DNA of 64,000 bases from Bryobacteraceae bacterium (GTDB lineage: Bacteria; Acidobacteriota; Terriglobia; Bryobacterales; Bryobacteraceae): positions 1 to 64,000 of the forward strand of contig JAHDVK010000018.1 in NCBI GenBank assembly GCA_023384675.1, in the 5' to 3' direction. A model generated the notes under the pieces. It did no database searches and had not been told where the DNA came from. It saw only the letters and a list, made by a program, of their open reading frames with translations. This document shows positions 24,907-28,544 of the stretch, piece after piece; the first letter of the stretch is position 1; each line of letters starts with the position of its first letter. The position numbers were made by a program, and so were the translations under genes.

Positions 24907-25242
24907 TTGTCACAACTTCCTTTTGAAATCTCGCCCGCCGAGGCCCAGCAGCAGGTGGCCGCCGGCAAGGCGGTCTTGATTGATGTGCGCGAAGAACTGG
25001 AGTTTCAGATGGCGCGCATTGACGGCGCGGAGTTGATCCCGATGAACACGATTCCGCAACACCTGCAGCGGCTCGATGGCCTGGCGGATGAGAAACTACT
25101 GGTGGTTTACTGCCATCACGGGATGCGCAGCCTCAATGTTGTCAACTGGTTGCGGCAGCAGGGGGTGGCGAATTGCGTGTCGATGGCGGGCGGAATCGAG
25201 TTGTGGAGCGCGCAGGTGGATCCCCAGGTGCCGCGATATTGA
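24907..25242 (+). CDS. Rhodanese-like sulfurtransferase, single domain
   Basis: The 111-residue protein is a single rhodanese domain: LIDVREELEFQMARIDGA is the CH2A-type motif, and VVYCHHGMRS contains the catalytic loop with the persulfide-forming Cys, followed by AGGIELWS. Such proteins move sulfane sulfur or act as thiol redox partners. The start is TTG at 24907, with GGAGG five bases upstream. It leads the operon containing the putative selenoprotein, and the 9-base gap to that gene implies a linked role. Confidence 0.9.
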   Translation: MSQLPFEISPAEAQQQVAAGKAVLIDVREELEFQMARIDGAELIPMNTIPQHLQRLDGLADEKLLVVYCHHGMRSLNVVNWLRQQGVANCVSMAGGIELWSAQVDPQVPRY

Positions 25243-25251
25243 GGTAACTCG

Positions 25252-25590
25252 ATGAAAACACAGTTCTATACGAAGCCCACTTGAACCACCTGCCGCAAGG
25301 CCGGGAGTTTCCTGGCCGAAAAGGGGGTGGAGGTGGAGCGGATCGACCTCAACCGGGGGTTGAGCGTCGAGGAGCTCGACAAACTGATCGGAAAACGCGA
25401 TTATTTGCCCTTCTTGAACGCAAAGAACGCCATTTTTCGCGAAAAAAACATGCAGCGGAACCCGCCTTCGCGCGAGGAGGCGCTCCGGCTGATGAGCGAG
25501 CATCCCAACCTGATCAAGCGGCCTCTGGCGGTGCGGGGAGCGAAGATCTGGTTTGGATTCAAGCCCGAAGAATGGGAGGAACTGGCATGA
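25252..25590 (+). CDS. Putative selenoprotein: ArsC/Spx-family thiol oxidoreductase with in-frame UGA
   Basis: Reading from the ATG at 25252 gives MKTQFYTKPT, then TGA at 25282-25284, then TTCRKAGSFLAEKGVEV and on to a second TGA at 25588-25590. The product is 112 residues if the first TGA is decoded as selenocysteine. ArsC/Spx-family proteins have YxxPxCxxCRKA at this place, so the TGA falls on the first redox Cys, giving U11-T-T-C14. The rest is intact: SREEALRLMSEHPNLIKRPL contains the conserved Arg-Pro loop. GAGG seven bases before the ATG supports this start. The alternative GTG start at 25327 would lose the active site. The gene overlaps the next one by ATGA. Recoding is inferred; sequencing error or a nonsense mutation is the alternative. 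Confidence 0.8.
25285..25317 (+). promoter_or_regulatory. Putative bacterial SECIS element
   Basis: Directly after the in-frame TGA, GGCCGGG (25299-25305) and CCTGGCC (25311-25317) pair to a 7-bp stem with one G-U pair, around the loop AGTTT. The loop starts 21 bases after the TGA and has G in its second position, both within what is known of SelB-binding hairpins. The hairpin overlaps coding sequence, as bacterial SECIS elements do. Confidence 0.6.
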
Positions 25591-26738
25591 AACTCACTCG
25601 CCGGGCCGCGCTTCTTTCGCCGGCCGCGCTGGCCGCCGCGCAGCAGGAAAAGACGGCGCCCAAGTACACTGGAGCGCTGGACAAGTTCGCCGCCGAAGTG
25701 GACGCGGCGAAGATGGACCCTGTCCGCTGGAGCCAGATGCGCTACGACGAGATGCCGCGGCGGCTGCGCTTTCAGGCGGCGAACCGGAGCGAAGCGGAGG
25801 CGTGGCAGCGGCGGCTGCGGATGAAGGTGACGGAGTTGGTCGGCGGTTTTCCGGCAAAAAAGGCGCCGCTGGCCCCGAAAACGCTCGAAAAACGCGAATT
25901 TCCCGGCTATTGGCGGGAGGCGGTGGTGTTCGATTCCCGGCCCGGGTTGAGCGTGTTCGCTTACATTCTGACGCCGAAACAGGCCGCGGGCCCGTTTCCG
26001 GCGGCGATCTGCATACCGGGGCACGGGCGCGGCGTGGACGACATCGTGGGTGTGGACGCCGAGGGCCGCGACCGGACGGACAAGGACGGCTACCAGCACG
26101 ATTTCGCCATTCAGGTGGTGGAACAGGGCATGGCGGCGGTGGCGATCGAGCCGATCGGGTTCGGCTGCCGGCGCGGCGACCAGGCAAAAAGCCGGGGGCT
26201 GAGCGCCAATTCCTGCCAGCCGGCGGCCGGGGCGGCGCTGCTGTTCGGCGAAACGATGGTGGCGTGGCGCACCTGGGACGTGATCCGGACGATCGACTTC
26301 ATCGAGACGCGCCCCGAACTGGATGCGAGCCGGGTAGGCTGCCTGGGCATCTCGGGCGGCGGCACGATTACGCTGTTCGCCTCGGCGCTGGAAACGCGCA
26401 TCAAGGCGGCGCTGATCAGCGGGTATCTGAACACGTTCCGCGACTCGATTCTGAGCCTGGCGCACTGTATGGATAATTACGTTCCGGGGATTTTGAATTG
26501 GGCCGAGATGAGCGACGTGGCGGGGCTGATCGCGCCGCGGGCGCTGTGGGCCGAATCGGGCGAGAAGGACAATATCTTCCCCATCGAGGCGTCGAAGCAG
26601 GCGTTCGCGGAGGTCCGCAAGATCTACGAGGTGTTTGGAGAAGAGGGGCGCTGCGGGCTTGAGGTGTTCGACGACGGGCATTCGTTCTCCGGCGTGCGCG
26701 GGCTGCCGTTTCTGCGCGCACAATTAAGGGAGGGATGA
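25587..26738 (+). CDS. Exported alpha/beta-hydrolase family esterase
   Basis: This 383-residue protein starts with a twin-arginine-like leader (MKLTRRAALLSPAALAAAQQ). The hydrolase core shows AAICIPGHGRGVDD as the oxyanion region, the nucleophile Ser in GCLGISGGGTITL and a late His in VFDDGHSFSG. It resembles the acetyl-xylan-esterase-like or DUF1100-like hydrolases that Acidobacteria carry in numbers. The start overlaps the stop of the selenoprotein gene and the end overlaps the archease start. Whether it shares a function with these neighbours or only their transcript is unknown. Confidence 0.85.
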   Translation: MKLTRRAALLSPAALAAAQQEKTAPKYTGALDKFAAEVDAAKMDPVRWSQMRYDEMPRRLRFQAANRSEAEAWQRRLRMKVTELVGGFPAKKAPLAPKTLEKREFPGYWREAVVFDSRPGLSVFAYILTPKQAAGPFPAAICIPGHGRGVDDIVGVDAEGRDRTDKDGYQHDFAIQVVEQGMAAVAIEPIGFGCRRGDQAKSRGLSANSCQPAAGAALLFGETMVAWRTWDVIRTIDFIETRPELDASRVGCLGISGGGTITLFASALETRIKAALISGYLNTFRDSILSLAHCMDNYVPGILNWAEMSDVAGLIAPRALWAESGEKDNIFPIEASKQAFAEVRKIYEVFGEEGRCGLEVFDDGHSFSGVRGLPFLRAQLREG

Positions 26739-27124
26739 GCAGATTCGAGATCCTTGAGCACACCGCGGACATGGGATTTCGCGTGCGGGGCGCGAATGAG
26801 GAGGAACTGTTCGCGAACGCGGCGGCGGCGCTGGCGGCGGTGGTGATGGATACCTCGCGAGCGCAAGGGCTTGAGCGGCATGAGATCGCCAGCGAGGGCG
26901 AGGGCGTTGAAGAGCGGCTGGTTCACTGGCTCAATGAAGTGCTGTGGCTGATGGACGGGCGCGGCGTGGCGCCGGCGCGGTTTGACCCCGGGGTGGTGTG
27001 GGGCGAGACGCGCGACGGGGCGAAGCATCCGCCGAGGCTGGTGGTGAAGGCGGTGACGTTTCATCAGTTGCGGGTGTGGCAGGACGCGGAGGGCTGGGGG
27101 GCGGAGGTGTTCCTTGACGTTTGA
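26735..27124 (+). CDS. Archease
   Basis: This 129-residue protein matches archease, the cofactor that lets RtcB ligase turn over many times by promoting its guanylylation. The opening FEILEHTADMGFRVRG with the conserved Asp, the later WLNEVLWLMDG and the end KAVTFHQLRV with EVFLDV are diagnostic. It overlaps the rtcB start by 11 bases, matching the usual genomic pairing of the two. Confidence 0.93.
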   Translation: MSRFEILEHTADMGFRVRGANEEELFANAAAALAAVVMDTSRAQGLERHEIASEGEGVEERLVHWLNEVLWLMDGRGVAPARFDPGVVWGETRDGAKHPPRLVVKAVTFHQLRVWQDAEGWGAEVFLDV

Positions 27125-28544
27125 ACGCATCGACGAAGTGCGCAACCGCATCCCGCGGACGGCGCGGGCGAACATGCGGACGGATGTCATGTTTTACGCC
27201 AGCGACGCGCTGCGAGGGCCGATTCTAAAGGACCGCGCACTGGAACAGGCCATGAACGTGGCGTGCCTGCCGGGGATCGTGGGGCCGTCGCTGGCGATGC
27301 CGGATATCCATCAGGGCTATGGGTTTCCGATTGGGGGCGTGGCGGCAATGGACTGGCGGCATGGCGTGGTGAGTCCCGGAGGCGTGGGCTACGACATCAA
27401 CTGCGGGGTGCGGCTGGTGAAAACGAACCTGGATCTCGCCGAGGTCCGCGGGCGGCTGCGGGAACTGGTGGACCGGGTGTTCGCCGATGTGCCGTGCGGG
27501 GTGGGCGGCAAGGGGCGGGTTCCGCTGACGGAGAAGCAGTTGAATCAAGTGCTGACCCGAGGCGCGGGGTGGGCGGTGGAGGAAGGCTACGGCGAGGCTG
27601 GCGACATCGAGAAGGCGGAAGAGCGGGGCTGTTTGCGGGAGGCGGACCCGGAGTGCGTTTCGGCGCGGGCGAAGGAACGGGGCCGGCCGCAGCTGGGCAC
27701 GCTGGGCAGCGGCAATCATTTCCTGGAGATCCAATGGGTGGAGCGGGTGGAAGACGCGGAGGCGGCGCGGGCGTTCGGGCTGAGCGAAGGGCAAGTGGTG
27801 GTGCTGATTCACAGCGGCTCGCGGGGCCTGGGTCATCAGGTTTGCACGGATTTCCTGCAGCAGATGGGCGCGGCGATGAAGCGCTACGGGATCACGCTGC
27901 CGGACCGGCAATTGGCGTGCGTGCCGGTGCAGTCCGAGGAGGGGCAGCGGTATTTGAAGGCGATGCGGGCGGCGGCGAATTTCGCGTGGGCGAACCGGCA
28001 GGTGATGATGCACATGCTGCGGGGGAGTTTTGCGGGTATCTTCGGGAAAACGGCCCGGCTTTCGCTGCTGTATGACGTGTGCCACAACATCGCGAAGCGC
28101 GAGCGGCACGACTGGGAGGGGCGCGAGGTGGACGTGCTGGTGCACCGGAAGGGCGCGACAAGGGCGTTTCCTGCGCGCCATCCGGAAATTCCGGCTGAGT
28201 ACCGCGCGGCGGGGCAGCCGGTGCTGGTGCCGGGGAGCATGGGGACGGCATCGTGGGTGCTGGCGGGGCTTGAGGGCGCGATGCGGGAGAGTTTCGGCAG
28301 CGTGTGCCATGGGGCGGGGCGGCGGTTGAGCCGGGCGGCGGCGAAAGCGGGCCGGAACGCGGCGGCGGTGCGCGAGGAGCTCGAGCGGCGCGGCATCATT
28401 GTGCGCTGCGAAACGCGCGACGGGCTTCTGGAGGAGGTTCCGGAAGCCTACAAGGATGTGGACGAGGTGATCGAGACGGTGGCTTTGGCGGGATTGGCGG
28501 GGAAGGTGGCGCGGCTGCGGCCGCTGGGGGTCGTAAAAGGCTGA
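27114..28544 (+). CDS. rtcB: RNA-splicing ligase RtcB
   Basis: This 476-residue GTP-dependent ligase joins 2',3'-cyclic-phosphate or 3'-phosphate RNA ends to 5'-OH ends in RNA repair or tRNA splicing. Metal and active-site residues are visible: Cys97 in VGYDINCGV, histidines in GSGNHFLEIQ and SRGLGHQV, and His399 in VCHGAGRRLSR, the likely guanylylated residue. MPDIHQGYGFPIGG near the start is also typical. The start is TTG at 27114 with GGAGG six bases upstream, inside the archease gene. Confidence 0.95.
   Translation: MTFERIDEVRNRIPRTARANMRTDVMFYASDALRGPILKDRALEQAMNVACLPGIVGPSLAMPDIHQGYGFPIGGVAAMDWRHGVVSPGGVGYDINCGVRLVKTNLDLAEVRGRLRELVDRVFADVPCGVGGKGRVPLTEKQLNQVLTRGAGWAVEEGYGEAGDIEKAEERGCLREADPECVSARAKERGRPQLGTLGSGNHFLEIQWVERVEDAEAARAFGLSEGQVVVLIHSGSRGLGHQVCTDFLQQMGAAMKRYGITLPDRQLACVPVQSEEGQRYLKAMRAAANFAWANRQVMMHMLRGSFAGIFGKTARLSLLYDVCHNIAKRERHDWEGREVDVLVHRKGATRAFPARHPEIPAEYRAAGQPVLVPGSMGTASWVLAGLEGAMRESFGSVCHGAGRRLSRAAAKAGRNAAAVREELERRGIIVRCETRDGLLEEVPEAYKDVDEVIETVALAGLAGKVARLRPLGVVKG

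Follow-up and report, generated by a model that had tools for sequence, protein, structure and literature searches.

A predicted UxxC selenoprotein of the ArsC/Spx type with a SECIS-type hairpin in Bryobacteraceae

Introduction

ArsC-like proteins containing selenocysteine (Sec) have been described from several sequence collections. The Sargasso Sea survey reports 14 such sequences with a UxxS motif (PMC1088965). A survey of sequenced bacteria mentions two ArsC-like Sec proteins and assigns to the Acidobacteria three selenoprotein families with four selenoproteins (PMC1794560). The family "Arsenate reductase 2" of the Global Ocean Sampling (GOS) set is listed with cd03032, a UxxC motif and 42 Sec sequences in PMC2398784. 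The curated model NF041106 (ArsC_rel_Se_1) corresponds to the "Arsenate reductase-like protein, UxxC" in PMC13188914, and an entry with the same motif stands under COG1393 in PMC9312934.

Here, a gene for an ArsC/Spx-like protein with an in-frame TGA was analyzed, located in a 64-kb stretch of DNA from a Bryobacteraceae bacterium (hereafter the window, meaning the whole stretch of 64,000 nucleotides). Its product resembles GOS Arsenate reductase 2 in belonging to the ArsC superfamily and in having the first Cys of CxxC replaced by Sec (U11-T-T-C14); that family, however, derives from marine reads. The clade of the window protein may well be identical with it. Spx/MgsR (TIGR01617) and the structures 3gkx, 1z3e and 1rw1 share with the window protein the fold, the N-terminal CxxC and an Arg-Pro near the active site, but the window protein has Sec where Spx/MgsR has the first Cys. 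A preliminary description, made from the letters of the window, had cautioned that the class might not be wholly new, and rightly so, as UxxC ArsC-like selenoproteins are described in PMC2398784, PMC9312934 and PMC13188914. The Sec-containing UxxC kind of ArsC-like protein is thus already known. Within it the clade of the window protein forms a branch of its own, whether or not this branch equals the GOS family.

Results

The features of the locus are compiled in Table 1. The TGA is codon 11 of the ArsC/Spx-like frame and the active-site motif of the product reads P-T-U-T-T-C-R-K-A. It had been claimed that a single TGA replaces the first Cys of CxxC in an otherwise intact frame, and indeed no other stop occurs before 25588-25590. 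The good ribosome site reported earlier corresponds to a GAGG that overlaps the stop of the rhodanese gene, seven nucleotides upstream of the ATG; the ATGA overlap with the next gene is seen at 25587-25590, and the conserved Arg-Pro loop was recovered as R90-P91, which, together with the Sec/Cys column, is among the invariant columns of an alignment of 60 homologues. Annotation had been expected to start at the GTG at 25327, and a mechanical TGA-avoiding ORF of 87 aa does begin there. This GTG was rejected as the true start, the conserved N-terminus and the active site lying upstream of it. Compared with its nearest relative (L024 in genome G116), the gene differs at 21, 10 and 40 first, second and third codon positions, respectively, over 110 ungapped codons, and this bias towards the third position is the pattern of a protein under selection.

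Table 1. Features of the ArsC/Spx-like locus, in window coordinates.
Feature	Position	Strand	Evidence
Rhodanese-domain gene directly upstream (9 nt from the ATG), putative operon partner	24907..25242	+	PF00581, E 1.3e-17
GAGG, ribosome-binding-site-like	25241..25244	+	read in the sequence
ArsC/Spx-like gene, predicted selenoprotein of 112 aa with Sec at position 11, start ATG	25252..25590	+	reading, PF03960, column alignment
TGA, predicted to be read as Sec, first position of UxxC	25282..25284	+	codon column of 60 homologues
SECIS-type hairpin, 8-bp stem of 25299-25306 with 25310-25317 (one G-U), loop GUU 25307-25309	25299..25317	+	folding, pair counts, loop conservation
AGT codon (Ser19) carrying the conserved loop GU	25306..25308	+	codon counts in TGA and Cys genes
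Alpha/beta-hydrolase-like gene, overlapping the stop by ATGA	25587..26738	+	PF12715; downstream in some relatives only

A search of 200 genomes of the same family returned matches in 75 at E 1e-3. Sixty of these reached E 4e-33 or better and are taken as strong, and the other 15, remote or partial (E above 1e-7), were not counted; two rows were dropped from the family count, namely L084 (a duplicate of L042) and L083 (a 31-residue fragment from G001 lacking a tblastn match). The codon aligned with the TGA was TGA in 50 and TGT or TGC in 10 of the 60 strong homologues, and nothing else, so that an in-frame TGA is aligned with a conserved redox Cys, and the second Cys of the motif was kept in all 50 TGA genes and in nine of the ten Cys genes. 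This column bears out the earlier argument that a TGA at the catalytic Cys is no coincidence. Across the phylum, 54 of 297 Acidobacteriota genomes had a match at E 1e-15 to a profile built from the 60 proteins. Forty-two non-family loci were read and, after removal of L106 (N-terminus missing), 41 were scored, with TGA in 20 and Cys in 21; ten matches out of the 54, each listed as free of stops, lie outside these 41. Over family and phylum together (101 rows), all 31 non-TGA rows have Cys. A quick tree of these rows (70 Sec, 31 Cys), limited by few columns and some long branches, requires at least nine state changes, three of them forced by well-supported branches. A scan of named genomes with the single protein gave 11 loci, comprising eight strong acidobacterial relatives and three remote ones.

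These counts bear on the possibility that the gene is a pseudogene, or an ordinary CxxC ArsC-like gene with a miscalled TGC or TGT, whose product, if any, starts at GTG 25327. The truncated annotation expected from that ORF would fit, as would the single base separating TGA from TGC or TGT. However, the same TGA recurs in 50 of 60 family and 20 of 41 phylum homologues, divergence is biased to the third codon position, the TGA is followed by a hairpin and an invariant AGT codon (see below), and, judged by the predicted structure, a product from the GTG would be without both strand 1 and the active site. A base-call error is excluded in practice by the same TGA in 49 other family genomes, and instead of stops at other places the four same-genus genomes among the 200 (G000, G011, G082 and G116) all have TGA at this column. 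Pseudogene and assembly error are hence refuted in practice by the homologues, and we regard this explanation as exceedingly improbable.

Two TGA forms contain an extra in-frame TAG, L114 (G475) inside the frame and L078 (G105) near the C-terminus; these are taken to be decaying copies or errors. In G158, the TGA form is directly adjoined by another, remote match of the ArsC-like type (C459:6678-7321), which has 24% identity and no stop.

A conserved G/U is expected in the loop of bacterial SECIS elements. In figure legends of PMC1088965 and PMC2398784, this conserved G/U is named as a criterion. A SECIS-type hairpin with a conserved loop G/U was found shortly after the TGA, its stem starting 14 nt downstream, with mixed results when a single common register is imposed. 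The 49 nt from the TGA fold with -26.8 kcal/mol, a value equalled by 1 of 200 shuffles (z -3.34), and the 28 nt around the hairpin gave a z of -2.79 (equalled by 2 of 200), whereas a 41-nt stretch reached a z of only -1.33 (equalled by 22 of 200). The hairpin could be drawn after the TGA in all 50 TGA loci, and in some of them (e.g., L026, L050 and L072) the minimum-energy fold of the 45-nt stretch differs from it. A single stem register for the 50 loci left 78.5% of positions paired (0 of 500 shuffles as high), but two of five measures did not stand out from the shuffles (477 and 470 of 500); this common register mixes two registers, and the loci were hence split by best fit into 21 with i+j=54, 22 with i+j=55 and seven with a bulged mixture. 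With loci sorted in this way, which leans towards structure, 94.6% of 168 cells were paired in the first register (slid versions at most 62.5%) and 90.0% of 140 cells in the second (slid versions at most 52.1%), neither value being reached in 500 shuffles. Two-sided changes occur in two pairs per register, as many as in 76 and 29 of 500 shuffles, respectively. Pairing in the best register covered 71-100% of positions in the TGA loci as compared to 38-71% in the ten Cys loci, where the choice of the best of three registers per locus favours structure equally in both groups.

With the T of the TGA as position 1, nucleotides 24-28 read GAGUU in all 50 TGA loci, which are related and hence do not represent 50 independent events. 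As a consequence, the eighth codon after the TGA is fixed as AGT (Ser), while the ten Cys genes have Lys (6), Ala (1), Arg (1), Thr (1) or Asn (1) there and never Ser. AGT is otherwise rare: eight neighbouring genes use it for 5 of their 107 Ser codons, and the 50 TGA genes for 13 of 189 at other positions. Since AGT is present in all 50 Sec genes and Ser in none of the ten Cys genes, Ser19 seems to serve the RNA loop and not the protein. The base after the TGA is likewise A in 50 of 50 TGA genes as compared to 5 of 10 Cys genes. By eye, six TGA loci of f18 (L098-L103) have the loop AGGTCT for GAGTTT, with Gly-Leu for Ser-Phe, and L110, L126 and L131 have a GGTC loop; in these variants the loop GU is kept and its neighbours change.

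The genome of the window (5.73 Mb in 60 contigs, 97.4% complete) was searched for selA, selB, selC (tRNA-Sec) and selD, a check proposed in the preliminary description, and all four were present, each over its cut-off. The tRNA-Sec on C41 scored 74.7 bits (cut-off 47) with the anticodon TCA assigned by ARAGORN, and it is the only match over the cut-off among the 14 matches listed in the genome; selA (C34), selB (C13) and selD (C42) reached 493, 358 and 350.9 bits, respectively, each over the family cut-off. No tRNA genes were found in the 64-kb window. Among 14 known genomes used as controls, tRNA-Sec was over the cut-off in five, selA in one, selB in two and selD in two. The machinery is frequent in the family, 167 of the 200 genomes having selB and 159 having tRNA-Sec over the cut-off, and its presence is therefore necessary, though not specific, for reading the TGA as Sec. 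Among the 50 genomes with the TGA form, selB was strong in 44 (E 1e-81 or better), weak in three (1e-45 to 1e-58) and missing at 1e-40 in three, and tRNA-Sec was over the cut-off in 42; all those without strong selB have tRNA-Sec and all those without tRNA-Sec have strong selB. Seven of the ten Cys genomes have both selB and tRNA-Sec and three have neither. The latter belong to one genus (g24), other members of which (G138, G150 and G197) combine the TGA form with strong selB; the association of the Cys form with absent machinery (Fisher p 0.0035, ignoring kinship) thus rests on a single genus. The selD gene of the window genome itself (L019:1471-2460, contig 42) contains one in-frame TGA, in the context AG-U-ASKL, and is probably a second selenoprotein gene, as judged from its sequence.

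UGA read-through exists in bacteria, and the codon might be read in this way as another residue, such as Trp or one inserted by a near-cognate tRNA. Contrary to this, Cys alone replaces the TGA in homologues (31 of 31 non-TGA rows), the tRNA-Sec/SelB machinery and a SECIS-type hairpin are present, and TGA serves elsewhere in the genome as a normal terminator, for instance at the end of this gene and of its rhodanese neighbour. On these grounds another residue was rejected, only a very slim chance being left to it. The earlier proposal that Sec stands in place of the attacking Cys is supported by the same machinery and hairpin and by the Sec/Cys column, and the gene almost certainly encodes a small redox protein with Sec at its predicted active site.

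The window protein matches PF03960 (ArsC superfamily) with 58.2 bits and E 1e-15, above the gathering score of 24. A model obtained with AlphaFold2 from the 60-row alignment has a pLDDT of 94.4, and Foldseek placed the ArsC-related 3gkx (E 4.6e-10) and Spx (3gfk, 1z3e) as its best PDB matches, followed lower down by YffB (1rw1) and E. coli ArsC (1i9d, E 9.1e-5). The nearest curated NCBI model, TIGR01617 (Spx/MgsR), was just missed with 73.1 bits against a cut-off of 75.05; the best clade member has an E-value of 1.1e-23 with this model and the window protein one of 2.4e-20, and part of the clade probably lies above the cut-off. This near-match and the Spx structures among the top fold matches would suit a regulator of the Spx/MgsR type, binding to RNA polymerase and responding to oxidants via a UxxC switch. 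The protein, however, scores far under the model of the transcriptional regulator Spx (NF002459, 42.1 bits against 123) and comprises 112 aa as compared to 131-132 residues in Spx chains, and we consider a regulatory role unlikely.

Membership in PF03960 and the naming of the published Sec-ArsC proteins, called arsenate reductases in PMC1088965 and PMC2398784, could also point to a glutaredoxin-dependent arsenate reductase with Sec for the catalytic Cys. Against this, the score with the arsenate reductase model TIGR00014 is 39.5 bits (cut-off 106.05), E. coli ArsC is a distant fold match only, and a Pfam scan of eight neighbouring genes detected no ars gene. Arsenate reduction is in our view decidedly unlikely.

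In 30 of the 60 family loci (27 of 50 Sec and 3 of 10 Cys loci), the 700 nt upstream of the gene contain a same-strand tblastn match to the rhodanese; this number is a lower bound, as divergent rhodaneses could be missed. Different genes precede the ArsC/Spx-like gene in other loci. The link with rhodanese is common, not general. The upstream gene in L045, L047, L057 and L063 resembles, by eye in translation, an ABC transporter ATP-binding protein. Further downstream in the window (26735-28544), archease (PF01951) and RtcB RNA ligase (PF01139) follow each other in overlapping frames as an RNA-repair pair.

Discussion

The reading that we consider highly probable is that of a selenoprotein gene, in which UGA would be translated as Sec via SelB, tRNA-Sec and the hairpin to yield a 112-residue UxxC protein of the ArsC/Spx fold. 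We propose that the UGA is decoded by SelB and tRNA-Sec, with the hairpin 14 nt downstream directing the recoding. In the protein, the selenolate of U11 would attack an oxidised sulfur (or oxyanion) substrate, C14 would resolve the intermediate as a selenenylsulfide, and a cellular thiol reductant would regenerate the protein, in line with a putative role in selenol/thiol redox chemistry. With a rhodanese gene directly ahead of it in half of the family loci, the simplest candidate substrate would be a sulfur species, oxidised or persulfidated, on which that rhodanese acts; we put this pairing forward as a tentative possibility.

Among the known Sec-containing relatives, NF041106 is similar to the window clade in having Sec in the UxxC of a short ArsC-like protein and in occurring in Acidobacteriota. 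The window protein nevertheless scores only 25.9 bits with this curated Sec-ArsC model, as compared to a cut-off of 85, and the best E-value among the 60 family members is 3.9e-10. Of the 297 phylum genomes, 26 contain NF041106, every match having a single TGA, and these are separate from the 54 genomes with the window clade, the overlap being 0 (p 0.004, ignoring kinship). Several NF041106 genes of Acidobacteriota (L140-L145 and others) contain GGAGTTTC or GGGGTTCC in the loop region. Open-licence literature on selenoproteins of Acidobacteriota, Bryobacter or Spx yielded only unrelated-looking work, and the clade may still be published. The complete picture, namely a clade of UxxC selenoproteins uncaptured by curated Sec models, a selenol reductase paired with rhodanese and a hairpin dictating Ser19, has in our estimation somewhat less than an even chance of being right as a whole.

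Genes of this kind are easily mis-annotated as truncated, and the ORF from GTG 25327 loses the active site. For Acidobacteriota, the clade would represent a second ArsC-like Sec family beside NF041106. One bacterial family with both Sec and Cys forms and a clean RNA signature offers a natural set for studying Sec/Cys interchange, and the same set shows how a recoding signal constrains the sequence of a protein, the most unusual feature being the residue that appears to be imposed by the RNA.
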